Program-made: the position numbers and the translations under genes
The notes under the pieces: model-generated
Seen by the model: only the letters and a program-made list of their open reading frames with translations
What the model was told of the DNA's origin: nothing
The model's database searches: none
IMG/VR virus record: IMGVR_UViG_3300033394_000001
Coordinates: 1 to 24,031 of that record
From: a virus
DNA: 24,031 nt
Direction: 5' to 3' (one strand)
In this document: piece after piece, positions 5,062 through 22,287 of the stretch
Layout: every line of letters starts with the position of its first letter
How positions within the stretch are numbered: the stretch's first letter is position 1

Positions 5062-5436
5062 TTAGTTGAGCTGCCCGCCGCGTAGTAGTTCGACGGTGAT
5101 GATCTCGCCCGCACCGGCAGAGCCCAGCCGCGCGATGCCCGCGACCCGGTCGCCCGACGCCGCATCGACTGCGCGTCCCGTTGCGTCCGAAGTGACCTCC
5201 GCGCCGATCGTCACGGCGTCGCCGGAGACGACCTTAGAGAGTCCGTCGGACATATACGCGACCGCTCGGTCAATCGCGCTTGCGTTGTTGTCCTGCGCCA
5301 CACCGATCACCGCCACGCCAGCACCCGCCAGCACCGCGCGCCCGTTGCCGTCGACCGCGAGAAAACGAAACTGCGCACCGCTTAAGTCCCCGGCAGCGTC
5401 GATGCTGTGCAGATCACCGGGAGTCTGAAAAGCCAT
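5062..5436 (-). CDS. Head decoration protein (DUF2190-like)
   Basis: The gene encodes a 124-aa beta-rich protein with repeated small motifs such as GVAVIGVAQDNNAS, SGDAVTIGAEVTSD and GDRVAGIARLGSAGAGEI. This pattern, with VxGD-type turns and an ending of IITVELLRG, resembles DUF2190-type decoration proteins that sit on the capsid surface between scaffold and major capsid genes. The start used is the ATG at 5436, preceded by a strong GGAGGTTTTCACT site. An in-frame start five codons upstream is less likely. It is followed 35 bases later by the capsid gene. Confidence 0.72.
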   Translation of the reverse strand: MAFQTPGDLHSIDAAGDLSGAQFRFLAVDGNGRAVLAGAGVAVIGVAQDNNASAIDRAVAYMSDGLSKVVSGDAVTIGAEVTSDATGRAVDAASGDRVAGIARLGSAGAGEIITVELLRGGQLN

Positions 5437-5453
5437 AGTGAAAACCTCCAATA

Positions 5454-5468
5454 TCGGCGCATCGCCGA
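5454..5468 (-). other. Hairpin in the leader of the decoration gene
   Basis: TCGGCG and CGCCGA pair perfectly around a 3-base loop. The hairpin lies in the 61-base interval between the scaffold stop codon and the decoration ATG. A second, imperfect stem GCGGGAC/GTCCGC lies at 5481-5496. Neither has a T-run. They may stabilise or separate the highly expressed decoration and capsid messages. Confidence 0.4.
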
Positions 5469-5497
5469 AGTTTGAGTGAAGCGGGACTCAGTCCGCG

Positions 5498-6655
5498 CTA
5501 GTTGACGTTCTGCTCGTCCCTGTAGTCCTCATACAGATCGGGATTGTCACGCATGACCTGCACGCGGCACTTCTCGATGCTCATGGCTGGATTCTTCTCG
5601 TGCATCGCCTCGGCGAGTTTGCAAATTTCCATGTACGCGGCGTCGCCCTCTGGTGCCGCATCGCCCAGTGCGGTGCCGAGCTCATCGAACAGCCCGCCGC
5701 TGCGCCGGATGGCAGCAGCCTGCGCCTCGAAGCTCTTGACGAGCTCTGCGCGCACGCTCTCGTCTTCGATTTTCCACAGCTTCTCGATCAGCGCTTCGCG
5801 AGGCTCGGGCATGCCCTCGAGGTCGCCTACAGACTTTGCGAACGCTGCGCGCGCGGCGCTGGCCTTGAGCACCGAGACGTCTGCGAGCATCGCCTTGGCC
5901 TGCGCCTCGGCTCTATCTGCGCGATCGTGTGCGGCTTTGAGCAGCGGCTCAACGCTCTTCCTGATCGCCTCGGGCAGACCCTCGAGCGGGTCGAGCTTCT
6001 TGGGCTCGTCTTTGGTGCCCTTCAGCTTCGCAATGTCTGCGGTGAGCGTGGCGATCTGTGCGCTCTGCTCTTCGCTCTTTTTGACTGCGGCTTCGACGGC
6101 CGCGCGATCCTCTGGGCTCAGCTTGCTGAGATCCATCCTGTGACCCTCCTGCGTTGAGCCGGTCGACTTGTCCGGCGGTTGGAATTGAAACAGCGCTGCG
6201 AGCGTGCTTGCTACTTCGTGCACGTCCGGACGGAACAGCCCGCCCATGCGCTTGACGATGCGGCCAGCCATGATGGCGGCCAGATCCGTATCGATGCTGC
6301 CGACGAATTGGCCGATCGTCTCGCGGATGCGGTCCTCGGCCGGGCCCTGGTCGCCCTGCTCGACGAATAGGATCGTCCAGACCGAGTGGCTGAGATCATC
6401 GATCCGCGATCTGATCACTTCGACGATCTGGTCGCCCATGCGATCCTGGCGGATCTCGTCAAAAAGCCGCTTCTCGATCTGCTCGGCCGACTCGCGCGCG
6501 CGCAGTAGATCTCGCACGCGCTGTGCGACCTCGCCGACCTCGCCAGACCGGGCGCGCTTGAACAGCGAGATGAGCGCGGGCGGATTGTCGCCCTCATCGA
6601 CCAGAGACACCTCATCGATCACTACGTCGCGGAGCCATTCCCTAGGCAGCGGCAT
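5498..6655 (-). CDS. Capsid scaffolding-type protein with N-terminal XkdF-tail motif
   Basis: The gene encodes a 385-aa protein from the ATG at 6655, which has the AAAGGAA binding site upstream and overlaps the protease gene by 14 bases. The N-terminus holds VIDEVSLVDEGDNPPALISLFKR, a motif normally found at the end of XkdF-type phage proteases (DEVSLVDxPANxxA). The rest is strongly helical. Residues of about 180-240 form an Ala/Glu/Lys-rich segment with DLSKLSPEDRAAVEAAVKK and SAQIATLTADIAKLK, which suggests coiled coil. The remainder is charged and contains a FDELGTALGDAAPEGDAAYM segment, often seen in scaffold-like proteins of this type. Placed between protease and decoration genes, it most likely guides capsid assembly and is removed by the protease. 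The split of the XkdF-type motif from the protease domain is notable. Confidence 0.7.
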   Translation of the reverse strand: MPLPREWLRDVVIDEVSLVDEGDNPPALISLFKRARSGEVGEVAQRVRDLLRARESAEQIEKRLFDEIRQDRMGDQIVEVIRSRIDDLSHSVWTILFVEQGDQGPAEDRIRETIGQFVGSIDTDLAAIMAGRIVKRMGGLFRPDVHEVASTLAALFQFQPPDKSTGSTQEGHRMDLSKLSPEDRAAVEAAVKKSEEQSAQIATLTADIAKLKGTKDEPKKLDPLEGLPEAIRKSVEPLLKAAHDRADRAEAQAKAMLADVSVLKASAARAAFAKSVGDLEGMPEPREALIEKLWKIEDESVRAELVKSFEAQAAAIRRSGGLFDELGTALGDAAPEGDAAYMEICKLAEAMHEKNPAMSIEKCRVQVMRDNPDLYEDYRDEQNVN

Positions 6656-7049
6656 CGACTGATTCCTTTCGTGCACTGCCACCGATTGAGAACGCCCGGA
6701 ACCTGCGCGACTTCACGCCCTCCCATGCATCGTCATCGGTGACTTTGAATCCGATGAACCATCCGCGTTTCTTCGATACGATTCCGAGCGCCTGCGCGAT
6801 CTCGTCTGTGATGACGATCGAGTGGCAGACCTCGCCAGCTGAGCGTTTGTGCATCTGCCCGCCGATACGCGACTCGAGCATGAAGCCCTCTGCGGCTTTC
6901 TCGATGTCGGCGATCGAGACGGCCTGCCCGCTGTGATCGATGACCTGCGCACCGCTCTCATCGTTCGATACGTAGCCCCAACCGAATACGATGCGGCGCT
7001 CCGCGTCCAGCTTCTCGATTTCGACGCGGTGCTGTAGCTCTCCGGCCAT
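6642..7049 (-). CDS. XkdF-like prohead protease domain
   Basis: The gene encodes a 135-aa protein matching the Bacillus XkdF-type putative phage serine protease. Features include RIVFGWGYVSND near residues 19-30, the VIDHSGQAVSIADIEKAAEGFM segment around 36-57, and GGQMHKRSAGEVCHSIVI at 63-80, holding a likely catalytic His67 and Ser77. The GWFIGFKVTDDDAWEGVKS motif and the closing FRAFSIGGSA strand are diagnostic of the family. It starts four bases after the head morphogenesis gene, with AAAGGG upstream. Unlike most XkdF proteins it stops at the end of the protease domain. The EVSLVD-type tail sits at the start of the next gene in another frame. It should process scaffold and capsid proteins during head maturation. 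Confidence 0.85.
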   Translation of the reverse strand: MAGELQHRVEIEKLDAERRIVFGWGYVSNDESGAQVIDHSGQAVSIADIEKAAEGFMLESRIGGQMHKRSAGEVCHSIVITDEIAQALGIVSKKRGWFIGFKVTDDDAWEGVKSRRFRAFSIGGSARKESVDAAA

Positions 7050-7052
7050 CTC

Positions 7053-8276
7053 TCAACGCCCTTTCTTCGGTGAGGTAGTGCGCCAGTGCGGGCGCGAACG
7101 TTTCTTGCGGCGTGCAGCGATGGGCACGCGGAACGGTCCCGGCTGCCCAGAGCCGGGCAAGCTCGGGAACGGCAGAATCGTGGCGCCAGAATCATCTTGT
7201 AGGTCTGGCACGAGGCCACGGCCGAGCGCAGCGGCCGCGCCGGCGAGCGCAGCACCGATCAGGAACAGCGGCACTGCCGCGCCGCCTCTACCTGGCGGCC
7301 TGGTCCCCGGTATGGTTCCCGATCGGCTCTCGTCGCTGCCCGACGGGTCCGGGTCGTCGCCATACTCCAGGAAACATCGACACGAAACATGCCCGGGCGG
7401 ACTGAGTCCGACGAAGCCGCGGCTCGAAAAGCTGTCGTTGAACCGGATCGTCACGCCGTGCAGAGGCTCGCAGATGGGGCACACACGGTCATCCAGGACG
7501 GTGAACCACGTCTTATAGAGCAGCGACGTGTCGACTTGATTGCTCGCTGCGGCCTGCTCCCAAAAACCGCGCTCGCCGTGCTGGATCGCGACCTGCGTCT
7601 CGTTCTCGGCGATGTTGCGCCCGCGCTGGCGCAGCAGCCGATTGCGGTAGTTCTCCACGTCTTCGGCGATCGCCTCGCGCGCGAGCGCGGTATCCGCCTG
7701 CTCGCTGACGATGCGCTGCGCGGTGATGCGCTCCTCGAAGCGCGCGAGCGCTTTGGCCTGCTGGCGTGTGAGACCTACTTTCTGCCCGATGTCGCGCGCG
7801 GCCTGCGTCGGCGAAAAGCCCTGCGTCAGACTGTCCGCGACGATCTGGTTCACGGCTTTGCGGGTCTCGGCGTTGATCCCCACGATGCGCTGGCCGCCCT
7901 GCCCGCGGATGAACCGCTCGGCGATGTCGGTGATCAGACTGGGGTCGATATCGATCGAGGGCGCACCCGAGAAGCGCAGCCCCAGCCGTGCACCGCCATC
8001 GATCGCTTCGCGAAATTGATTCGACAGCGCGGTCGCAATGTCCGCCTGGATCGACGCCAGCCCTTCCTCGGGCACGCCCAGCACCGTGCCTGTGAGGATG
8101 CGCCCGAGCAGCTCCTCGGTTACGTCGAAGCGTCCGCGCTCGATGATCTCGAGATACTCGCGCTCAAACTTCGCTGCGAGCGCCTCGCGCAGCTCGCGGT
8201 TCGCCTGCCGTTCCTTGCGGCTTACCTTGGCGATCGGCCCGCGCCTGCGGGATTTCGCAGCCGCGAATCGAAACAT
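7053..8276 (-). CDS. Head morphogenesis protein (SPP1 gp7 / Mu gpF family)
   Basis: The gene encodes a 407-aa protein from the ATG at 8276, which has GGGAGAG upstream and is preceded by a stop codon 12 bases away. Residues 1-250 are helical and charged. Residues 255-303 hold the signature of the SPP1 gp7/MuF family. The sequence DDRVCPICEPLHG (Cys266, Cys269) is followed by LSPPGHVSCRCFLEY (His296, Cys299, Cys301), which probably binds a metal. These minor capsid proteins act inside the head next to the portal. The C-terminal hundred residues are an extension with a hydrophobic stretch (AAVPLFLIGAALAGAAAALG) and a very basic end, of no recognised family. The gene lies between the portal and the protease, as in Mu- and SPP1-type phages. 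Confidence 0.85.
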   Translation of the reverse strand: MFRFAAAKSRRRGPIAKVSRKERQANRELREALAAKFEREYLEIIERGRFDVTEELLGRILTGTVLGVPEEGLASIQADIATALSNQFREAIDGGARLGLRFSGAPSIDIDPSLITDIAERFIRGQGGQRIVGINAETRKAVNQIVADSLTQGFSPTQAARDIGQKVGLTRQQAKALARFEERITAQRIVSEQADTALAREAIAEDVENYRNRLLRQRGRNIAENETQVAIQHGERGFWEQAAASNQVDTSLLYKTWFTVLDDRVCPICEPLHGVTIRFNDSFSSRGFVGLSPPGHVSCRCFLEYGDDPDPSGSDESRSGTIPGTRPPGRGGAAVPLFLIGAALAGAAAALGRGLVPDLQDDSGATILPFPSLPGSGQPGPFRVPIAARRKKRSRPHWRTTSPKKGR

Positions 8277-8287
8277 GCAGGCTCTCC

Positions 8288-8542
8288 CTAGAGTGGGTCC
8301 GGATCGCCCGGCCGCCGTGCGCGCAGCGTCAGGCAGCGTTTGCATTCGAGGGAGCGGCGCAGCACCAGATGCGGCGTCTGTCCGCCGCAGCGTCTGCAGG
8401 CCGCTTGCGCCAGGTATCCCGCGCACTGCGCGCCCATCGTCTCGCCGGATCGGCCGGCTGGTCCGCGTGCCGGCCTGCTCGCCTGCGGCCGGCTGGCTGG
8501 ACTGCCCAGCTGTACGCTCGCGCGGCTAGTCGGAGAGGTCAT
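8288..8542 (-). CDS. Small zinc-finger protein (Com-like position)
   Basis: The gene encodes 84 aa from the ATG at 8542, overlapping the portal gene by 17 bases. A second possible ATG at 8440 has a GGCGAG site and would give 50 aa. The first third is low-complexity. The C-terminal part contains CRRCGGQ and, 14 residues later, CKRC, the pattern of a one-finger zinc ribbon. Phage Mu has the zinc-finger protein Com, which is a translational activator of mom, and small Com-like proteins are common near the head genes of Mu-like phages. The stop lies 11 bases before the next start codon. I cannot tell whether it binds RNA or is a capsid accessory factor. Both frame and start are less certain than for the neighbouring genes. 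Confidence 0.6.
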   Translation of the reverse strand: MTSPTSRASVQLGSPASRPQASRPARGPAGRSGETMGAQCAGYLAQAACRRCGGQTPHLVLRRSLECKRCLTLRARRPGDPDPL

Positions 8543-9908
8543 CGGTCGTAGCCGGCGGCTTGGGCGGCTGCGGCCCGGGCAAAGGCGGCAGCGGCAGCTC
8601 GGACGGATCCTCGTCCGGCAGGCCCGCCTGCTGGCGCAGGTGGCGCTGCGTGGCCGGTCCCGTGAGGTCGATTCCGGCGTTCGTGAGCTGCGCGACGTAC
8701 GCTCCCAGCTTCTCGATCGATACGCTTTCGATGTCGCCGTGCGCCAGCGTCGGCGTCTCATCGGCTACGAACGCGTTCAGCTCGAGCAGCCGTGGGATCG
8801 CGAAGCGGTTGAACTGCTCGACGATCGCCTCGAGAAACGCCCCGATGGCCACCGCAAACAGCTCAGTCTTGCTCTCAGCGAGCGCGAATGATCCGGTCTG
8901 CCCCGCCTGCCCCAGCATCAGGAAATCGGCGAGCACGGTGCCCACAATGCGGCGGTCGTAGCGATTGATGATCGCGTCGGTGTCGAACTGCCGCTGTCCG
9001 CCGGTTGTGAGCAGCTCGATTTTGTAGGTCTGGTTGCCCTTCTCGTCGTATGCCAGCGGAAATACGATGCCCTCTTTTTCATCGCGGCGAATGTTCGTCA
9101 CGATCTGCTCGATTTCCCTGCGCAGTGCGCGCTGCTCGTCTGTGCAGTTCGGGTTTAGCAGCTTGGGCGGCACGAGCGCCATCGGCAGGCCGGTCAGGTC
9201 GCGGTCGACGCCGATTGCCTCGATCGTCTCGATTTTGGTTTTCATGTACCAGGGCCGGTAGGCGTTGCGCAGGATGCTGCGCCCTTCTGGATTGCCTTTG
9301 TGCGCGCTCGGACGAAACAGCAGCAGCCGCTGAATCGGGATGACGCGGATGCGGAAATCCGGCAGCGCCTGTTGATGCAGCCCGATCACGTCGCCGTGCT
9401 CGTCGAACAGCCACCGCTCGATGGTTTCCTGCGCGCGCAGCGCGAGCCGCTTCCAGCCGATGCGCCCGTCTCGGTGTTTGGATCCGAGCGCCGGGTCGAT
9501 GTTGCGGCCGCTCCTGCGTTTGTAGACCTCCTCGATCGGTGCGAAGCCAGCCCAGAGCATCGAGAGAATCTCGGAGAGCGTATCGTCCCACGTGTCATGC
9601 ATGTCGAAGAGGCAGCTCTCGACGAATTCGGCGATATCGACGTCTCGTGGCGACTCGCTCGCCGGCTCTACGCTCCAGTCTACTTGCCGGATGAGCATCT
9701 CGATCGCGAACAGCAGCGCGCCGATGACCGGGTCGTTGTCGCGCATCTGCTTGAGCACTTTGATTCCGCGCTTGCCGCGCAGCTCGGGCAAGAACTCCTC
9801 ATGAATCATTCCGCCGTGCTGCTCGAGCCCAGAGACTCCGAGTGCTTCGAGCGGGTCGGTGCGGTCCGCTCCCGGCAGGAGCTTCAGCACACTGTCGTCT
9901 GTGGCCAC
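8526..9908 (-). CDS. Portal protein (DUF935/Mu gp29-like)
   Basis: The gene encodes a 460-aa portal protein, forming the dodecameric ring at one vertex through which DNA enters and leaves. The N-terminal part carries GIKVLKQMRDNDPVIGALL and an EMLIRQVDWSVEPAS segment typical of the wing/stem region. The centre contains HKGNPEGRSILRNAYRPWYMKTK and GVDRDLTGLPMALVPPKLL, which match the DUF935/Mu gp29-like pattern G-NP-G-x-L-L-R...W...K...EFGxP. The last 50 residues are proline-rich. The start is GTG at 9908, overlapping the terminase TAG stop by one base, which implies coupled translation. It stands directly between the large terminase and the Com-like and MuF genes, the expected order. Confidence 0.86.
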   Translation of the reverse strand: MATDDSVLKLLPGADRTDPLEALGVSGLEQHGGMIHEEFLPELRGKRGIKVLKQMRDNDPVIGALLFAIEMLIRQVDWSVEPASESPRDVDIAEFVESCLFDMHDTWDDTLSEILSMLWAGFAPIEEVYKRRSGRNIDPALGSKHRDGRIGWKRLALRAQETIERWLFDEHGDVIGLHQQALPDFRIRVIPIQRLLLFRPSAHKGNPEGRSILRNAYRPWYMKTKIETIEAIGVDRDLTGLPMALVPPKLLNPNCTDEQRALRREIEQIVTNIRRDEKEGIVFPLAYDEKGNQTYKIELLTTGGQRQFDTDAIINRYDRRIVGTVLADFLMLGQAGQTGSFALAESKTELFAVAIGAFLEAIVEQFNRFAIPRLLELNAFVADETPTLAHGDIESVSIEKLGAYVAQLTNAGIDLTGPATQRHLRQQAGLPDEDPSELPLPPLPGPQPPKPPATTDDLSD

Positions 9909-11287
9909 TACATTGCCCCCCAGGGTGAACTGCGGTCGGCCTTGCCAATACCGCTCACGCTCTGCACCTCGTCGAGTTTACTGCCCATCAGCTCGGTGAT
10001 CGCCCACACCAGAGCATCGAGCCGGCCGGGCGAGTAGTCCGACTGTCCCGGCACAAAATTGCAGCATTGATCCTCCAGGTCGGTGAAATATCCGACGTGG
10101 TGCACCCGTCCCTGCTCGTAGAGCCCGACGATCGGCTCGGCCCGGATCGCCTTGCCGCGCGATGCGTTCACAGCCTTGTAGGGGAATTCCTCGCGGACGG
10201 TGCGCAGGGTGATCTCGACGAGCTCGCCGCCGTTGTTGACCTCGCCGACGATGCGGTCGGCGCTCTGTGCATCGAACACGTCGAGCACCTTGTGCGACCA
10301 CTGGAGCGGACCCATGTCGCCGCTCTCATCCTGCAGCACGTAGAAATGCGAGGTGAGCTTGCCGCGCGCGTTTCGGTGCCAGGAACGGCCCGCCGCCACG
10401 ATGCCAACCTCGTCCGCATCCTCGCCGGTCGTGGTGTTGGGATCGACCGCGACGACGATGCGGTCAAGGTCCGGCGTCACTTCGCCCGCGCCCAGTCGGT
10501 GATCGTCGAAGAGCTTGCGGCCCCAGAGCGCGCCGTCGGCCTCGTCGAGAATCTTGGCAAAGATCTCCTGTTGGCCTTTGGTCGTCCCTGCGTTCTTCTC
10601 GATCACCTCATCGAAAAACGAGGGTGCGAGATTGCGCTGGTTGTCGTACGTCGAGCCGCCCGTGACCACAGTGTGATCACGCGCGTACAGCTCCTTCAGG
10701 AAGCGCAGCGGCCTCGGGGTCGTGGTGATGCACAGACGCGGCTTTGGGCCCGCGCGCAGCGTATACATCAGGTTATCCCATGACGCGCGCAGCCGGACCC
10801 AGGATGCGAGCTCGTCCGCCCATGCGAATTCAAACTCCGGACCGCGGATCGAGTCGGGTTTCTCGGCCGAACGGCACAGCACTTTCGAGCCGTTCGGGAA
10901 GATCAGCCGGCGGTTGCTGGGCTCGTATTTGGGCATCTCCCAGGGCGCGCAGCACGCCAGGATGCCGGAGGGCCCCTCGATCATGACGTCGCGGATGTCG
11001 GCCGCGGTGCGCGCGATGATGCCGCCTCGGCGTCCAGGCGCGCGCAGCGCCTCTTTACGAATCCACTCTGCGCCCGTCCGGGTCTTCCCAAATCCGCGGC
11101 CTGCGTTTAGCGCCCAAATGAACCAGGGCCCTTCGGGCTCGCACTGCTCGGGGCGTGCAAATTCGCCCTCCCAGTCGAACAGACTCGCGGCGATTTCGCG
11201 CTGCTCCTGCTCGCCCAGGTCGGTGAGCAGCGTGCGCACCGCATCGTCCGGCTCATCGATGAGCTGCTCGAGGAGCTCGCTACGCAA
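9908..11287 (-). CDS. terL: Terminase large subunit
   Basis: The gene encodes a 459-aa DNA-packaging motor ATPase and nuclease. The ATPase part has a Walker A motif GRGFGKT at residues 63-69, Walker B FEFAWADE at 152-159 and the coupling motif ITTTPRP at 187-193. The nuclease part has VAVDPNTTTGEDADEVG with Asp282 as first metal ligand, then GEVNNGGE at 348-355 and DALVWAITEL at 424-433. The first possible start is a TTG at 11287, because a stop precedes it. A GTG at 11239 is an alternative, and neither has a good binding site. The gene is followed without gap by the portal. It lies more than 10 kb downstream of the small subunit, which is unusual. Confidence 0.92.
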   Translation of the reverse strand: MRSELLEQLIDEPDDAVRTLLTDLGEQEQREIAASLFDWEGEFARPEQCEPEGPWFIWALNAGRGFGKTRTGAEWIRKEALRAPGRRGGIIARTAADIRDVMIEGPSGILACCAPWEMPKYEPSNRRLIFPNGSKVLCRSAEKPDSIRGPEFEFAWADELASWVRLRASWDNLMYTLRAGPKPRLCITTTPRPLRFLKELYARDHTVVTGGSTYDNQRNLAPSFFDEVIEKNAGTTKGQQEIFAKILDEADGALWGRKLFDDHRLGAGEVTPDLDRIVVAVDPNTTTGEDADEVGIVAAGRSWHRNARGKLTSHFYVLQDESGDMGPLQWSHKVLDVFDAQSADRIVGEVNNGGELVEITLRTVREEFPYKAVNASRGKAIRAEPIVGLYEQGRVHHVGYFTDLEDQCCNFVPGQSDYSPGRLDALVWAITELMGSKLDEVQSVSGIGKADRSSPWGAM

Positions 11288-11636
11288 CTACGGGAAGCAC
11301 CGATGAGCGCTGCGCTTTGAGCCCTGGTCCGCCGTCAAAGTCGATCGTGACGAGCACGATCTGCCCGGCCGCGAAGCCGTTCGCAGCGTCGATAAAGACG
11401 CTGGTCTGGTAATCGTTCGACGGCGGACTGACCTCGGGCATCGGCACGGGTCCCAAAATCGGCAGACCCGTGCCGTGGTCTGTGAACGAGACGGTCACCG
11501 TGGCACCCGTCACCTCGCTCGGAGGTGTGTCCGCCTCGTTCAGCGCATCGAGAAACTGGAACAGCGCATCGGAGTTGAACGCCATGCTACCGCACTCGGT
11601 GAGCGTGATGCCGTTGACGAGTGCGTTGCATGCCAT
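11280..11636 (-). CDS. Phage structural or fibre-accessory protein
   Basis: The gene encodes a 118-aa protein starting at the ATG at 11636, with GTGAGG just upstream overlapping the stop of the previous gene. It begins MACNALVNGITLTECGS and has beta-type segments such as ATVTVSFTDHGTG and SVFIDAANGFAAGQIVLV. The GFAAGQ phrase recurs in the accessory protein at 17228-17833, suggesting related tail or fibre folds. It ends eight bases inside the terminase gene. Its position between the fibre region and the terminase makes a tail-tip accessory role likely, but no family is recognised. Confidence 0.6.
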   Translation of the reverse strand: MACNALVNGITLTECGSMAFNSDALFQFLDALNEADTPPSEVTGATVTVSFTDHGTGLPILGPVPMPEVSPPSNDYQTSVFIDAANGFAAGQIVLVTIDFDGGPGLKAQRSSVLPVVA

Positions 11637-11638
11637 AG

Positions 11639-11866
11639 CTACCTCACCCGCTCCGCGATGTCCTTGGCGTACTCCGCGAGCCATCCATTGGTATATTGAT
11701 ATTCCATCCCGGGCGTCAGCTTGAGAAGCACAGATTCGACCTTTCCGGGTGAGAGATGTCCGTCGCGCATGAGCCAATAGAGCAGCGCAACGAGCGGGTC
11801 TGACGATGAGACGGACCCTGAGCGCTCTCGCATAGCCTCATTGGATCCGCCCACCGACTCCGCCAT
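11639..11866 (-). CDS. Small protein of unknown function
   Basis: The gene encodes 75 aa and starts immediately after the TAA stop of the previous gene (TAAATG), so it is translationally coupled. The N-terminal third is polar and probably disordered. The rest forms two likely helices (SDPLVALLYWLMRDGHLSPGK and GWLAEYAKDIAERVR). The pattern LVALLYWLMRDGHLSPG resembles small phage proteins found next to tail and fibre genes, but I cannot name it. No transmembrane segment is evident. Confidence 0.55.
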   Translation of the reverse strand: MAESVGGSNEAMRERSGSVSSSDPLVALLYWLMRDGHLSPGKVESVLLKLTPGMEYQYTNGWLAEYAKDIAERVR

Positions 11867-12439
11867 TTATACGCCCAGCATCTCGTGATTTACGAACACC
11901 TTGAGCGTATCGTCGGCCGTCTTGTCGAACGACGCGGCGAATGCGTAGCCCGTGAGCAGCGGCTCGGAAGCGCCCGGAGAGGTGTTCGTGATCGAGCCGT
12001 GCGTGATCCCGGCCTGCGTGAAGTCGCCCTGCGTCCAGCTCGTGCGCCAGGTCACCACGTCGATGCCGGTCGTGCCCGAATTGTCGGCATCTCCGTCGTC
12101 GGTCTGCGGATACGATCCGTCGATCGCTTTCTGCGTCGCGGTGACGACGGTGAAATCGGACCGATCGGCTGTCTTGCCGGGCGTCCCAGCCGTCGCCAAT
12201 TCCATGATGGGCGTTCCGAAATTCGTCGGCGTCTCGCCCGCACCCTGCTCGGCGTAGTATTGATCCCCGAGGTCGGTGACGATGTTCGACGCAGGGATGA
12301 CGAGCAAGCCGCTGGGCCTGTGCAGCACCGCGAAGACGTTTCTGTGTCGCGGCTGGAGCGCGTCGAAGCGGCGGAACCATAGGCCCGCACGGCTGCGCAG
12401 CACGCCCTCGAGTCCGTCTACTGCTGATCTGATGAGCAT
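11867..12439 (-). CDS. Phage structural protein of the tail/fibre region
   Basis: The gene encodes a 190-aa protein with a strong GGAGGATTTGCACCG site before its ATG. From residue 45 the sequence is typical of a family seen beside tail-fibre genes in many phages. It has SNIVTDLGDQYYAEQGAG, then GTPIMELATAGTPGKTADRS and SYPQTDDGDADNSGTTGIDV, ending in SFDKTADDTLKVFVNHEMLGV. The beta-rich pattern, with repeated GxA/GDxDN turns, suggests a surface-exposed structural protein. Its role in the particle is unknown, with a tail-tip or fibre-associated place likely from its neighbours. Confidence 0.65.
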   Translation of the reverse strand: MLIRSAVDGLEGVLRSRAGLWFRRFDALQPRHRNVFAVLHRPSGLLVIPASNIVTDLGDQYYAEQGAGETPTNFGTPIMELATAGTPGKTADRSDFTVVTATQKAIDGSYPQTDDGDADNSGTTGIDVVTWRTSWTQGDFTQAGITHGSITNTSPGASEPLLTGYAFAASFDKTADDTLKVFVNHEMLGV

Positions 12440-12459: not shown

Positions 12460-12675
12460 CTAGTGGATAGAGCGGGCGCTGCCGCTCGGAATGTCTCTGA
12501 GCACTGCGCTGACGTGTTCCTTGACGGGCTCGCGCGAGTTCGCGCCGCTGCGCCCGGGCTTCGCAGCGCGCTCCTGCAGCACGTTTGAGACCGCGAGCAG
12601 TACGACTAGCGTTACGAAGCCGCCCGCAGCGAATGCGATCAGGAGCAGCAGCAAGCTTCCGAAGACGCCAAACAT
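12460..12675 (-). CDS. Small membrane protein
   Basis: The gene encodes 71 aa with a hydrophobic N-terminal half (SLLLLLIAFAAGGFVTLVVLLAV), long enough for one or two membrane segments, followed by a polar basic tail. The GAGGG seven bases before the ATG is a good ribosome binding site. It sits 18 bases after the giant fibre gene and 20 bases before the next gene. A single hydrophobic helix plus a charged cytoplasmic tail could be a pinholin- or spanin-like protein, or a membrane anchor. No family can be assigned. Confidence 0.6.
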   Translation of the reverse strand: MFGVFGSLLLLLIAFAAGGFVTLVVLLAVSNVLQERAAKPGRSGANSREPVKEHVSAVLRDIPSGSARSIH

Positions 12676-12693: not shown

Positions 12694-15600
12694 TCACGGT
12701 TCATCGATGCGGACAGTGCCGCGCACCGCACTCTGCCCCATGCGCACACGGCCGGACACGGTGCCAGCGCCGAAGATCGCGGACGCTGAGACGGCGGCTC
12801 GGATGATCGCGCGTCCGATGAGCTTGCCGACCGTGCCGAGCGCGTCCAGCTGACTCTCGAGCACGCTCACCAGGTCCTCGGCGACGCGGACGATGCCGCG
12901 CACGCGGACCGCCTCGTCGAGCAGGCTCTCGAGCTCGGTGTGCACGCGCGCGAGCGCGCGGCTGCGTGTGGCGACTTCGATCGACCGGACCAGGTCCTCG
13001 GCGATGCGGACGAGCCCGAGCGCGTGCGCACTGCTGTGCACGATCTGGACGGCGTGCGTGACGGCGCGCAGCAGTCCGCGGCTGTGTGTGGCGCTCTCGG
13101 GCAGCTGCTCTGCCTCATCGACGCTCTTGAGCAGCCCCAGCGCGTGCCGCGCGCTCTCAGTGAGCTGCACGAGCGCCGAAACCGCTCGGCTGAGGTCCCT
13201 TGGGGCCCGCGTGCTCTCGCCCCGCTGCACGAGCTCATCCGATAGACGTGCGAGCGTGCGAGTGCGCACAGCGCCCTCTATCAGCGTCACCAGGGCGCCC
13301 ACGGCCCGAATCAAGCCGACCCGCCGGGCGAGCGTCTCAGCGAGCTGCACCGTCTCGCTGACCGCCTTGCGCAGCCCGGTGACGCGCAGCGCCTGCTCTA
13401 CGATCTGGACCGGCTCGCTGTGCTGGCGCATGCGACCGCGCAAAAGATCAGCAGATTCAAGCACTTGCACGACTTCCGAGAGCGCCCGTGCGAGCGTGCG
13501 GGCACGCACCTGCGCGTCGGCGAGCTGCACGAGCTCATCGATAGCGCGGACGGCGCTCCGCAGCCGAGCGATCGTTTCGGCGACCGAGAGCTGCTCATCC
13601 CTGAAGCGAAGCAGCCCGCGCACCCGGCTCGTCGACTCAGAAAGCTGCAGCGCCTCGTCGGCCGCGCGCACCAGGCCGCGCACCTGCAGTGCGCTCCCCA
13701 GCACCTGTAGCGCCTCGTCGGCCACGCGCACAAGCGCGAACATGCGCGCCACGCTCTGGGCCAGCCGCTCTGTCTCATCGACCGCGCGGGCAAGCGTCCG
13801 CACGCGCTCCGCGTCCTCGAGCGCATTTTCGAGCTCATCGGTCGCACGCACCAGTCCGCGGATCGCGGCGAGCGTTTGCGCGACCTGCACGAGCTCACCG
13901 TGCGCCCGGACGAGTCCCAGCGCGCGCACTGCGCCCTCGCTGCTCTCGATCACGTCGGCGAGCACGCGGACGAGGCCACGTACGCTGACCGAGTCTTCGA
14001 GCAGCTGCAGCGCCTCGTCGATGACTTGCACAATCTTCGCGACGCCGGCCTGGACGACGTCCTCGAGTATTCGTTCCGTCTCGTCGACGGCGCGCACCAG
14101 GCCGCGCAACTTGGCTGCGCTCTCGGTGAGCTGCACGAGCTCGGATATGGACCGGATCAGCGTCCGCGCTGCGGCGTGCGTCTGTGCGAGCTGCTCGAGC
14201 TCCTGGACCGCTCTGGCGAGCGCGCGGGCGCGCACGGCGCTCTCTGAGATGCTCTGCGACTCGCTGACCGCTCTGGCGAGTGCGCGGATGCGGGCGAGTG
14301 TCTCGCCGAGCTCCAGCGCTTCGCTGACCGCTTTGCAGATGGCGCGAATGTGCGCCACGTCCTCGGCGATCTGCTCTGGCTCATCGACCGCGCGCGAGAG
14401 CGCGCGCATGCGCGCAGACGTCTCGTCGGCTGTGATGCTCTCGCCCGCCAGCCGCGCCATCGTGCGCACGCGGAGCACGTCCTGCTCGGCCGTGACGGAT
14501 CCGTCCCGGGTCCGCGCCATCGTGCGCGCACGCCCGGGCACCTCGGCGAGCGTCACCGCGTCGCCTGCAGCGCGAATCAGTCCGCTCGCGCGCGCGATGC
14601 TCTCGGCCACATCGACCGCCTCGCTGATCTGGCGGATCAGTGCACGCACGCCGGCGCGCGTCTCGTCTGGGCTGAGCTCCTCGCTGCGCTGGCGCGAGAG
14701 CTCGCGTGCGGCGAGCCGCGTCTCATCCAGCTCGACCGTCTCGCCGTGCACCTGCGCCAGCAGCGCGCCCGAGACGTTCTCGATCACGCAGTGCAGCTGC
14801 GCGCGGCCGGCTGCAAGGACGAATTGCCAGGAAATGGCATAGCCCGTGTCCGAGTAATTGACCATCAGCGCGCCGAGGTCGGTCGACACTGTGCGGCAGC
14901 GCAGCACGTGCTGCAGCAGATGCTCCTGCTGTTCGTTCGACGTGCTCTGACCGTCTTCGGAGTTGACCTGCACGCAGCCGATCACTGCAGGCTCGCGGTC
15001 GTTCGCCGCTACGTAGCTGAGCGACTGCGGGCCCGCATCGACGTCCTGCTCGAGCGTCCCGACGGTTTGCACGCGAGAGCCTCCGAACAGGATGCAGTGC
15101 GGCCTCCAGCCGATGTTGCGGTCGACGATTCCGGTCCCCGTCGGGCTGGACACAAAGCCGAATTCGGTGCGCGCACCCGGCCAGCGAATGGCGAGATAGG
15201 CGACCTGGACGGTGCCGGGCGTGTCCTGATGGTTGACCAGGCGGAATCCCGCATCGCGCTCGGGCTCTGCTTTGACTTTCCATTGCGCACCGCTGGCTGA
15301 GCTCACGCCGGCCACAAAGCCGCTGTCTGCGGCGCTGACGGGTGCCGTCGTCGTCACGCCACTCGGGATCGTGTGACAGAGCATTGCCTGCTCGGTGGCC
15401 GCGCCCAGCCGCGTGCGCAGCCGTGCACCGCCGAACGTATAGCTCGCACCTGTGATTGCCGAGTCGTTCAGCTGACCTCCGGCGCCGGCCATGAACAGCA
15501 CGTCCGGGTCGCCGATCGAGAGCGCGACCGAAGACACGTTCCCGCGCCCTGGCACGGTCGCGATCCCTGCCTGGATCTCGAGCTCTTCGCCTGCGAAAAA

Positions 15601-16989
15601 CAGGAAGTCGACGAGGTACGCCACACCGTTCGTTGCGCCGATGTTGATACGGATCCCATCGGGCACGAACGCATCGAGGTTCGCCTCGACCGCGACCGCG
15701 CCGGCCGTGCCGCTGCCGGTCTGCAGCAGCATGATCAGCTCATCGCTAGCCCCGCGGCTGTGCACCTGCGTCGTACCCACTGCGTCTACGGAGCGCATAG
15801 CGCAGGCCGCCTGCGCGGGTCCGGTAGCGCTCGCAAAGCCTCTGCAGACCGATAGATTATCGGTCAATCCTCCCGCGGTGCCGGTCCGTGTGATGCCCAG
15901 CACGAGCACGCCTTTGGGCGTACGTCCACCGAGCGTGTTGTTCGTGGCCGTGATGGTCTGCAGCCCGGTCGATGTGTTGAGCGCCACGCGCCTGTGCACC
16001 GCAGCCACGCGCGGCCGCGTATCCACCACGATCACGCGTTTCGCTGCACTGCGATTCCCGCCGTTGTCGGTGACGAATACGTACATCCGCCCTTGCGCGA
16101 TCGCACCGCGATTCGCGGTGAAGGTGATGGACGAGGCGGACCATGACGTGACGGTCTGCGTCACTTTCGTCGCAGCCGCGTAGTTGGAGCTGCTGGCGAG
16201 CTCTACCGTTCCTGCGCCCTGCGTGGCCCCAAACAGGCTGCCCGCTGCGACCGTGCTGGCACCCTGCGCGATCCAGGTATCGGCTGCCTGCGGCGATGCC
16301 GTGACGCTCGAGACCGAGATACGCGCCTCGGGAATCCGAATCGAGATGCCGTTGTTCTCTTCGCTCGAGTTCGGATTCCACGTGCGCGTGGCGGATGCAC
16401 CCGGCGATGCCTGGATCTCGATTGCGCTCGCCAGCGAGACGTCCGCGCCGAACGTCCCGCCGTTGCTCATCGTGGCCTGAATAAACGTCGTGCTGCCGGG
16501 TGCGATGTTCGATTCGGTACCCGGTACCTCATCGTCGTCGATCAGCGCGACGCGCAAGATCGCCTCATTCGAGTAGACCGTCGTGACGGACGGGGATACA
16601 GGGTCGCCCGAGCCTTGCGGATTCTCGGCAATCTGCGCAATGCCGTGCACGCCCGAGTCCGGGTCGTAGCCGCGAATCGCGATGATCTGTCCGACCATCA
16701 GCGAAGAGGTCGAGCACGTCCAGGTATACGAGGCCGGCTCGCTGCTCGCGATGCGCGTCTGGATCAGCAGCTCGGGCACGCTCGGAGGTGAGCCGCCCGA
16801 GATGTAGCGCCCGCCGGGCTGCCGGGTCCAGTCCTTGTGATGGTCCGTTACGCCGTCTTCGTTCTCCCCCTGCGCGATGAGCGCTACGAGCAGGTCCCCG
16901 TCTGCGTGCGTGGGCACCGACACCGCGAGCGAGGTGACCTCGGAGCTGCCGGACGTGGCCTCGGCGTTGCCGATCACGGTTACCGCCAC
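12694..16989 (-). CDS. Giant fibre-like tail protein with 20-residue repeats
   Basis: The gene encodes 1431 aa. Residues 1-220 resemble a phage tail domain with GDLLVALIAQGENEDGVTD and a later GQIIAIRGYDP segment. Residues around 225-320 (VTSWSASSITFTANRG, MYVFVTDNGGNRS) look like an IPT/TIG-like fold used in phage tail proteins. Residues 330-758 are beta-rich and of unknown type. Residues 759-1380 are 31 units of a 20-residue repeat of the form RxRGLxRAVxExVQLxExxA, with one two-residue insertion in unit 12. The last 50 residues (SASAIFGAGTVSGRVRMGQS) are again beta-type. The start is GTG at 16989 behind a run of seven G. It probably forms a long fibre at the tail tip for host recognition, but it is unlike known fibres in sequence. 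Confidence 0.72.
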   Translation of the reverse strand: MAVTVIGNAEATSGSSEVTSLAVSVPTHADGDLLVALIAQGENEDGVTDHHKDWTRQPGGRYISGGSPPSVPELLIQTRIASSEPASYTWTCSTSSLMVGQIIAIRGYDPDSGVHGIAQIAENPQGSGDPVSPSVTTVYSNEAILRVALIDDDEVPGTESNIAPGSTTFIQATMSNGGTFGADVSLASAIEIQASPGASATRTWNPNSSEENNGISIRIPEARISVSSVTASPQAADTWIAQGASTVAAGSLFGATQGAGTVELASSSNYAAATKVTQTVTSWSASSITFTANRGAIAQGRMYVFVTDNGGNRSAAKRVIVVDTRPRVAAVHRRVALNTSTGLQTITATNNTLGGRTPKGVLVLGITRTGTAGGLTDNLSVCRGFASATGPAQAACAMRSVDAVGTTQVHSRGASDELIMLLQTGSGTAGAVAVEANLDAFVPDGIRINIGATNGVAYLVDFLFFAGEELEIQAGIATVPGRGNVSSVALSIGDPDVLFMAGAGGQLNDSAITGASYTFGGARLRTRLGAATEQAMLCHTIPSGVTTTAPVSAADSGFVAGVSSASGAQWKVKAEPERDAGFRLVNHQDTPGTVQVAYLAIRWPGARTEFGFVSSPTGTGIVDRNIGWRPHCILFGGSRVQTVGTLEQDVDAGPQSLSYVAANDREPAVIGCVQVNSEDGQSTSNEQQEHLLQHVLRCRTVSTDLGALMVNYSDTGYAISWQFVLAAGRAQLHCVIENVSGALLAQVHGETVELDETRLAARELSRQRSEELSPDETRAGVRALIRQISEAVDVAESIARASGLIRAAGDAVTLAEVPGRARTMARTRDGSVTAEQDVLRVRTMARLAGESITADETSARMRALSRAVDEPEQIAEDVAHIRAICKAVSEALELGETLARIRALARAVSESQSISESAVRARALARAVQELEQLAQTHAAARTLIRSISELVQLTESAAKLRGLVRAVDETERILEDVVQAGVAKIVQVIDEALQLLEDSVSVRGLVRVLADVIESSEGAVRALGLVRAHGELVQVAQTLAAIRGLVRATDELENALEDAERVRTLARAVDETERLAQSVARMFALVRVADEALQVLGSALQVRGLVRAADEALQLSESTSRVRGLLRFRDEQLSVAETIARLRSAVRAIDELVQLADAQVRARTLARALSEVVQVLESADLLRGRMRQHSEPVQIVEQALRVTGLRKAVSETVQLAETLARRVGLIRAVGALVTLIEGAVRTRTLARLSDELVQRGESTRAPRDLSRAVSALVQLTESARHALGLLKSVDEAEQLPESATHSRGLLRAVTHAVQIVHSSAHALGLVRIAEDLVRSIEVATRSRALARVHTELESLLDEAVRVRGIVRVAEDLVSVLESQLDALGTVGKLIGRAIIRAAVSASAIFGAGTVSGRVRMGQSAVRGTVRIDEP
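12850..14715 (-). repeat. 31 tandem 60-bp units encoding 20-aa repeats
   Basis: The coding sequence repeats with a period of exactly 60 bases over 1866 bases, apart from a 6-base insertion in unit 12. Units are diverged in DNA sequence but keep the encoded consensus RxRGLxRAVxExVQLxExxA. No identical unspaced copies or spacers exist, so this is a protein-level array and not CRISPR. The divergence argues for selection on the protein and against very recent duplication. Confidence 0.9.
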
Positions 16990-20054: not shown

Positions 20055-20359
20055 GGGTCCAGCTCCTGGCGTCCCCTCAGATCGTCCAGTGCCTTCAGAT
20101 CGTCCAGTGCCTCGGCGTAGCCTTCACGCGCGGCGCGCTGAGCCTCTTTATGGGCCTGTACGAGCGCGACCCGCAGCCCGCGGCGCTCTGCGTCCAGATG
20201 CTCGATCAGTTCTGCGGCCGCATCGAGCAGCCCATCGAGGACGACCTCGCGGCCGGTGATGCGCTGCTGCAGCTCCCGCAGCTTTCGCGGCACATCGGGC
20301 AGCACGGCCTCGAGCTGCCGCGCTCGCCGCAGCCTGGCGATCAAGCTGCTGTCACACAT
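20051..20359 (-). CDS. Helical coiled-coil-like protein of unknown function
   Basis: The gene encodes 102 aa and is rich in Ala, Arg, Leu and Glu, predicted as long helices, with LPDVPRKLRELQQRITGREV and AAAELIEHLDAERRGLRVAL segments. The end contains ALDDLKALDDL, made by a perfect 18-bp tandem duplication. Its start overlaps the preceding gene by eight bases and its stop overlaps the next start (ATGA). No family was recognised. Its place before small membrane genes would fit a lysis accessory role. Confidence 0.55.
   Translation of the reverse strand: MCDSSLIARLRRARQLEAVLPDVPRKLRELQQRITGREVVLDGLLDAAAELIEHLDAERRGLRVALVQAHKEAQRAAREGYAEALDDLKALDDLRGRQELDP
20077..20112 (-). repeat. Perfect 18-bp tandem duplication within a coding region
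   Basis: The 18-base unit TCAGATCGTCCAGTGCCT occurs twice without a gap, encoding ALDDLK-ALDDLR. The length is a multiple of three, so the frame is kept. An exact repeat of this length suggests a recent slip duplication. Confidence 0.9.
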
Positions 20360-21018: not shown

Positions 21019-21592
21019 CGGCCGGCCCCGATGGCGCGCGCGGCTCGTCGTCGTCGTCCCGACTTTCGCTTCCCAAGCGGCACTCGAATTCGTGCTCAAA
21101 CCACAGATAACCGTGGGGGTATCCCGTCTGCGGATCGATCGGGACGCCTCGAAAATTTCGTGCCAAATCCGCCAAATTTGACACATCCGCCGGAAATTCG
21201 TTACTACCGGGGGTAGGTGTGCCGGCTCGGCCGGATCTCCGAAGCGTTCCCCCCGCTTCGGGGGCAGCTTCAAGGAGATTCGGCTTTCGGGTCGTGTCAA
21301 TGCTTTCGCACTGCCTTTGCTGTGCCCTTCGCGGTCCCGACGCAGTGAGCTCCGAATGCTCGTGAGCCGCCGCTTTCGCTCCGCGCTCCGCCCTCGTTGC
21401 CCCGTGCTGCCCATGCCGGAGCGCCGCAGACTCGCGCTGCTCGCTTGCGTCGCACGCTCCCTCGCTGCGCTCGCTCGCGTCTCGCTCTCTTAAATCCAAG
21501 GGCATCGGATCGCTGGCTGGAGCTGTCCGCTCGGCGTGCGGCTTCGCGCGAGCATACGGTGGAGCGTCATTGCGGCCATTCGCCTCGCTCAT
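21011..21592 (-). CDS. Small phage protein with disordered N-terminal half
   Basis: The gene encodes 193 aa and overlaps the terminase small subunit by ATGA. The first 130 residues are polar and low-complexity. The C-terminal part is clearly protein-like, with SNLADLARNFRG, then DPQTGYPHGYLWFEHEFECRLG, and a final acidic-basic tail. The true start could be well downstream of the ATGA overlap. I cannot assign a family. Confidence 0.5.
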   Translation of the reverse strand: MSEANGRNDAPPYARAKPHAERTAPASDPMPLDLRERDASERSEGACDASEQRESAALRHGQHGATRAERGAKAAAHEHSELTASGPRRAQQRQCESIDTTRKPNLLEAAPEAGGTLRRSGRAGTPTPGSNEFPADVSNLADLARNFRGVPIDPQTGYPHGYLWFEHEFECRLGSESRDDDDEPRAPSGPAGE

Positions 21593-22278
21593 TCGCGGCC
21601 GCGCGAGCGCTTGAGCTGCTCAATCTTCTGCATGATGATGCTGCGCAGATCGGCCTGCACTTCGACGGGTCCACCATCGGGCCCGGAGAACTCCACGCTC
21701 TTGATGTCCGCCTGACCGGCGTGATTTTTGCCGAGCCAAATGAGCAGCGCTGGATTGAGCTGCCGCGCGCTTTTGAGCTGCAGCTGCTTGACGTCGAGCT
21801 CGATCGCCGCGCGACCCGCATCGAACGCTTGCCGCACTGCGCCGCCCTCGGCGAGCCGCTGCTCGAAGAGGCTCTTCGAGACGTGCAGCAGCCGCGCGAT
21901 CGAATGCTGCGTGATGCCCTGCGCCGCGAGCTCGTATACGTCGCTGGGGTCGAGCTCGATGCGCGGTTTCCCGCGCCACTCGCCGGGCGCTCTGGGCTCT
22001 AGGGTCCGCGCGGGTTTCGTGGAGCCCGGCCTGCGCTCGTGGAGCTTCTGGCTTGTGCCGCTGCCCTCTCCGGCGAGCAGGCGGGGAATCCACGGCTCGC
22101 TGTCCGGCGCTGCGGCCTCGGGTGGCTTCGCTGCGCTGCGTGAGGCACTGCGCGCTCTCGGGCGCTTCGGTCTGGGGGTCGCGGGCGGGTCGTCCTTGGG
22201 CGGCTCGCCGCCGCCGCCGCCGCTCTTTCGCGGATTCTTGCGTGCGGCCTTGCGCCTTGTAGGCTTTTCCTGAGCCAT
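21589..22278 (-). CDS. terS: Terminase small subunit
   Basis: The gene encodes about 229 aa from the ATG at 22278, and a GTG three codons upstream is also possible. The first 100 residues are a basic, proline-rich, probably disordered extension. Residues from about 110 contain a helix-turn-helix (DVYELAAQGITQHSIARLLHV), a helical segment, then LIWLGKNHAGQADIKSVEF and FSGPDGGPVEV. These match the C-terminal pattern of small terminases (FLxKNxxGWxDK...SGPDGGPxEV). The protein recognises the packaging site and directs the large subunit. It lies directly downstream of a promoter and about 10 kb upstream of the large subunit gene, an unusual separation. Confidence 0.8.
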   Translation of the reverse strand: MAQEKPTRRKAARKNPRKSGGGGGEPPKDDPPATPRPKRPRARSASRSAAKPPEAAAPDSEPWIPRLLAGEGSGTSQKLHERRPGSTKPARTLEPRAPGEWRGKPRIELDPSDVYELAAQGITQHSIARLLHVSKSLFEQRLAEGGAVRQAFDAGRAAIELDVKQLQLKSARQLNPALLIWLGKNHAGQADIKSVEFSGPDGGPVEVQADLRSIIMQKIEQLKRSRGRE

Positions 22279-22287
22279 TTCGGGCAC

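Follow-up and report, generated by a model that had tools for sequence, protein, structure and literature searches.

Which cells a virus can reach depends on its fibers and stalks. The shafts of known fibers are built from repeats of about 15 or 8 residues with hydrophobic and glycine patterns; the triple β-spiral has a repeat of about 15 residues with hydrophobic core positions, and the triple-stranded β-helix of the gp5 type follows an 8-residue VxGxxxxx motif. We analyzed a 24,031-nucleotide stretch of viral DNA (IMG/VR record IMGVR_UViG_3300033394_000001; hereafter, the window), which represents part of the genome of an uncultured siphovirus-like phage. One of its genes encodes a 1431-residue protein, the last 45% of which is built from a 20-residue unit repeated about 32 times. 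As a long repetitive spacer in an appendage, the array would be analogous to the two β-structured shafts, but it departs from the triple β-spiral in its period of 20 and its charged conserved positions, and from the gp5-type helix in that 20 is the dominant period. A heptad coiled coil does not describe it either, because a register of 20 residues is not divisible by 7 and a helix would rotate by 200° per unit. The unit appears to form a spacer rod that is widely shared and has so far gone undescribed.

Parsed in register, the array comprises 30 clear units of 20 residues, one of 22 residues and a degenerate last copy (Table 1). Residue autocorrelation over this region is highest at lag 20 (0.33–0.34), followed by lags 40 and 60. 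Identity at lag 20 is 0.338, compared with a shuffle mean of 0.099 (SD 0.012) and a highest value of 0.159 in 5000 shuffles, which confirms the 31 repeat units described in the initial annotation; the single 6-base insertion noted there is likewise real and accounts for the 22-residue unit. That annotation located the array correctly, but its bounds (12850–14715) trimmed about one unit in total relative to the in-register parse, and its consensus, RxRGLxRAVxExVQLxExxA, is better written as (D/S)E-x-V-Q-L-x-E-(S/T)-x-A-R-x-R-G-L-x-R-A-V. Mean pairwise identity between units is 32% at the protein level and 49% at the DNA level (best pair, 60%), and codon position 3 is the least conserved. Identity is constant with distance along the array (0.355 for neighbors and 0.356 for units 15 apart) and there has therefore been no recent tandem amplification; the units are old and diverged. 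Tandem Repeats Finder did not detect the array in the window DNA, where the copies are too diverged. An antisense open frame of 649 codons (12893–14842, plus strand) spans the whole array; most likely it arises from the codon pattern of the repeat where the DNA is GC-rich, and it should not be taken to indicate a gene.

Table 1. Features of the repeat-gene locus, with a giant archaeal relative (window coordinates unless another source is given)
Feature	Position	Strand	Description
TerS-like	21589-22287	minus	PHROG 309
Repeat protein ORF	12694..16989	minus	1431 aa, GTG start, single open frame
N-terminal part	14746..16989	minus	residues 1-748, beta-rich modules
20-residue repeat array	12820..14745	minus	residues 749-1390 (C-terminal bound approximate); 31 clear units and 1 degenerate
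22-residue unit	14020..14085	minus	residues 969-990, 6-base insertion; the single such unit
C-terminal tail	12697..12819	minus	residues 1391-1431, basic, short
71-aa protein	12460..12675	minus	directly downstream of repeat gene; one hydrophobic N-terminal segment, from sequence
c5 partner protein	11867..12439	minus	190 aa; conserved family near repeat gene in many loci
165-aa protein	11280..11777	minus	between c5 and terL; position as c0 of relatives
Terminase large subunit	9908..11287	minus	Pfam PF03237/PF17289, PHROG 979
Portal protein	8526..9908	minus	PF06074, PHROG 113
Giant Nitrososphaeria repeat protein	G003:C2:150284-160735		3483 aa

The window is contained, with two differences and an offset of 605, in a contig of 59,688 bp (IMGVR_UViG_3300033404_000002; G001), the ends of which overlap by about 55 bases, so that it probably represents a circularly closed genome. 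The repeat gene is identical in this contig and in 3300033400_000003. On the minus strand, the TerS-like gene is followed by small genes, the repeat gene, the genes for the 71-aa protein, c5 and the 165-aa protein, and terL; portal, head morphogenesis, major capsid, major tail and tail assembly chaperone-like genes come next. The repeat gene therefore sits between the TerS-side genes and terL, just upstream of terL, and outside the main tail module. The window TerL is nearest to those of Brevundimonas, Microcystis and Pseudanabaena phages. Further along G001, a long tape-measure-like ORF precedes tail-tip and fiber genes. A 529-aa frame (47398–48984, stop to stop) has a C terminus that is C1q/TNF-like by eye, and another protein of the tail-tip and fiber genes matches PHROG 1491 (“tail fiber protein”).

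Searches of the 1431-aa protein against Pfam and NCBIfam gave no match and no tail domain, and no model in either collection covers the 20-residue repeat. In PHROGs, the sole match was a sub-threshold one to a tape-measure family (PHROG 10613, E = 0.012); a match to a tail-fiber family was sought in all three collections and none was found. PHROGs does hold the repeat as unnamed fragments. PHROG 12240 (387 positions), an unnamed viral family of unassigned function, covers some dialects of the repeat and matches arrays at loci L048 (3.5e-18), L058 (2.5e-14), L016 (3.8e-11) and L041 (3e-9), with no match to the window protein. When the whole protein, its array, the consensus and the arrays of L015, L016, L036 and L048 were used in tblastn against cultured phages (INPHARED), no convincing match was obtained. 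Matches of 26% identity in Staphylococcus fell within the ClfA gene and probably reflect serine-rich sequence. Peptide-pattern scans with whole proteins retrieved nothing beyond the same phage and near-identical contigs. Scattered Pfam matches on relatives (EF-hand, YicC and others) were below or near cut-off and not common to them, and we regard these as compositional.

Relatives that escaped ordinary similarity searches were recovered with a degenerate DNA pattern of about 38 bits representing the motif. Scanning IMG/VR with it located the repeat in 53 stretches, all of which lie within ORFs with a dominant lag of 20 or 40 (22 in one); dozens of unrelated, uncultured viruses thus carry the repeat. 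We trained a circular profile on 59 ORFs; the 1254 units that it describes have acidic residues at positions 2 (92%) and 8 (86%), basic residues at 12, 14 and 18 (70, 64 and 93%) and hydrophobic residues at 4, 6, 16 and 20 (82–91%). The window protein belongs to the family so defined, with 30 units that fit the profile (score 643). A second profile, A2, finds the array in G001 at 2e-43, a value to be read with the window rows that A2 contains. GC content of the array loci ranges from 33 to 64% and the array-bearing viruses differ in TerL type. In about 20 loci, the array gene is followed by c0, c1 (nuclease-like), c6, c2 and terL. The closest relative of the TerL of this large group is that of Halogranum tailed virus 1 (32% identity), and its hosts may therefore be archaea; judged from TerL relatives, arrays would occur in viruses of both bacteria and archaea. 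The 165-aa protein of the window was tested as a c0 homolog and has no detectable homology to it despite the same position.

Unit number varies considerably from lineage to lineage: complete viral ORFs have a handful to about 47 detected copies, and an archaeon has over 120. Arrays of close relatives, by contrast, are nearly conserved unit by unit. Those of L032, L038 and L050 are largely colinear, at about 50–100% identity. The arrays of L015 and L055 both comprise 40 units, but units 3–11 occur in different block order at constant total length; this reflects either intragenic recombination or mis-assembly, both loci being from one metagenome.

The repeat also occurs in cells. Applied to cellular genomes (257 Gb), the pattern gave six matches, three of which are true arrays (an Anaerolineae contig, a Nitrososphaeria archaeon and an uncultured archaeon). 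The other three (an ABC transporter and other ORFs lacking period 20) are chance matches. The Anaerolineae contig, locus L075, is prophage-like, with a c5 gene next door. The Nitrososphaeria protein (Table 1) has an N-terminal hydrophobic segment and a β-rich N terminus. A very long array follows, of which the 2666 residues fetched initially yielded 122 units, and after it come a C-terminal domain and a membrane helix; the gene is located among ordinary chromosomal genes. The signal or membrane segment at one end and the membrane segment at the other indicate that the protein is extracellular. Profile matches below 1e-10 were found in 25 of 150 genomes of the class Nitrososphaeria, usually in ORFs of 1000–4000 aa; in spot checks, lag 20 was best in most of the loci fetched, and the antisense frame had been picked in a few. 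These surface proteins share the 20-residue unit and a long extracellular stalk architecture with the window protein, but they are cellular and membrane-anchored, have chromosomal neighbors and in many cases carry S/T-rich second halves. The 20-residue repeat looks like a real and widespread family, of which the databases and open papers that we searched contain no description, although it may have been published elsewhere.

The c5 protein is linked to the repeat protein across very different viral lineages, including the window. Genes for c5 are found near arrays in over a dozen loci besides the window (including L025, L028, L034, L047, L050, L056, L065, L067 and L075). Across 12 members of the family, 21 columns are invariant; the consensus is NIVTNDGDxYYA ... 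KTSSDTLKVFVNHTMNG. The family has no Pfam model, and the L067 member weakly matches PHROG 4176 (tail fiber protein). At L094, a small membrane-anchored protein with a GHNVITNAG stretch is encoded directly upstream of a giant archaeal repeat protein (6610–7155, plus strand). It was considered as c5-like and set aside, since the hhalign match (probability 17%, E = 0.0014 over 47 columns) is too weak. Other neighbors of viral arrays are of fiber type: a tail-collar/Gp10_C protein (PF21939, E = 3e-28) adjoins the L067 array, and the protein beside the L016 array (5128–7122, plus strand) matches tail-fiber PHROG 21412 (E = 1e-61). The latter has long repeats of its own (FTDADHSKLNAIEA...). Arrays of L016 and L067 are thus located in fiber clusters, whereas the window gene precedes terL.

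Residues 1–319 of the repeat protein are related to Maribacter phage Panino protein WZE63617 (E = 1e-9 in a small local search and 2e-5 in the phage collection), with which residue 1 aligns, supporting the GTG start. Residues 243–324 are related to the TIG/IPT domain of Marinobacter phage PS3 protein ATN93352. Both homologs are unannotated and both lack the array: in its place, the Panino protein has a LamG-like domain (judged from sequence) and the PS3 protein has Ig-like domains. The PS3 gene is syntenic, occupying the same place before terL, between endolysin and terL, and its product shares the β-sandwich/IPT part. Phage fibers usually evolve by keeping the N-terminal part and swapping the C-terminal one. 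Viral members of the repeat family share an architecture of N-terminal module, array and short tail, in which the module is either a 45–130-aa stretch rich in FQxNVF motifs or a set of β-sandwich-like domains. C-terminal tails of many relatives (L015, L023, L033, L037, L042, L043, L067 and L073) show a 9-residue periodicity, often K/R-rich; this is a property of those relatives.

The fold of the array was probed by structure prediction and by conservation, and these signals conflict. AlphaFold2 modeled eight window units (49 aligned segments) as one long helix (pLDDT 78, pTM 0.29) and 11 units of L015 as helices with breaks mostly at unit positions 4–5 (pLDDT 61, pTM 0.30). Set against the β-solenoid or helical rod envisaged in the initial annotation, the models show neither disorder throughout nor a solenoid, and the helices have low pTM. 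An α-helical rod, with one amphipathic helix and a short break per 20 residues or a continuous helix, would also account for the hydrophobic moment of positions 6–20, which peaks at 100–110° in 28 of 40 arrays (170–180° in eight), and it agrees with a PDB profile search in which no match was significant and the best were mostly designed helical proteins. Against it stand the low pTM and the S/T/V/I-rich character of residues 1–9; in a continuous helix, the rotation per unit would leave no hydrophobic stripe. Furthermore, even positions are more conserved than odd ones in 38 of 40 arrays, a figure that, we stress, is partly circular because the search pattern used even positions (outside the pattern's matches, the window array still gives p = 0.009), and i,i+2 couplings are stronger than i,i+3 and i,i+4 couplings. 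Such local couplings, the strict alternation E2-V4-I6-E8/R12-R14-L16-R18-I20 (partly ascertained by the same pattern) and the polar T/S-rich second halves of archaeal dialects suit a β-structured rod, solenoid or trimeric fiber, with charged E/R ladders; yet AlphaFold2 placed no strand in either dialect, and positions 13, 16, 17 and 20 are better suited to a helix. We hold the helical and the β-structured rod each only tentatively, at somewhat short of even odds. The array could also be a linker that is disordered or weakly structured and in which composition alone is maintained. Such a linker would explain the high divergence of units and the low-pTM models; it is quite improbable given an exact register over 640 residues, a single profile for all 1254 units with 92% acidic residues at position 2 and 93% basic residues at position 18, and rare indels that favor the 20|1 boundary (13 of 28). 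A 40-residue A/B alternation was sought and none was found, so all units are equivalent. One may speculate that each unit combines a short extended stretch (1–8) with a helix (about 9–20), which would reconcile the signals. These weightings concern the array fold alone and are separate from that given below for the appendage.

We propose, with a probability of about 0.6, that the product of the gene is a long appendage of the virion, namely a fiber with an N-terminal module, a spacer rod of 20-residue units and a short tail. This reading is favored, on indirect grounds, because arrays of relatives adjoin proteins with tail-fiber profiles and because the N terminus matches phage proteins. The β-sandwich/IPT part (residues 1 to about 745) would be the anchoring or assembly module, a placement suggested by its being common to phage proteins with quite different C-terminal domains. 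The array would form an elongated spacer and the short basic tail would close the far end, with c5 as a dedicated partner that probably either belongs to this structure or is required for it. The designation “tail protein” in the initial annotation accordingly survives as a fiber-like appendage but not as a component of the tail module, in which the gene does not lie, and no tail or virion profile matches the protein. Also counting against an appendage, the 59.7-kb genome has probable fiber genes of its own, and AlphaFold2 models with pTM of about 0.3 are at odds with β-like conservation. The separation from the tail module would instead suit a non-virion protein made from the pre-terL block, a secreted or surface-displayed adhesin acting at the host surface or at lysis, as would the endolysin genes near the PS3 and Panino homologs and the anchored cell-surface proteins of archaea. 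We consider this unlikely, since no signal peptide or membrane anchor is evident in the 1431 residues and viral relatives encode the array beside fiber-type genes. That the protein is the tape measure, as the sub-threshold PHROG match might hint, is scarcely credible: its N terminus is β-rich, its position is wrong, and in G001 an ORF at 57104–59686 plus 1–428 (no profile match) follows the chaperone-like gene, the usual tape-measure position.

Within the proposed fiber, unit number plausibly sets reach, because copy number varies between lineages and is nearly conserved between close relatives; this spread fits a spacer of selected length. A broader scenario, possible though doubtful, is that an undescribed extracellular-rod fold has passed back and forth between the surface proteins of Nitrososphaeria and tailed viruses that infect bacteria or archaea, usually together with c5, as a mobile stalk-plus-partner module. 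Dozens of viral contigs and also surface proteins of archaea carry the repeat, yet it is absent from Pfam and NCBIfam. A common type of appendage would thus have been invisible to annotation, and a repeat profile would annotate many “hypothetical” viral proteins. Elsewhere in the window, an exact two-copy tandem repeat of 18 bases is found at 20077–20112, inside a small minus-strand ORF.
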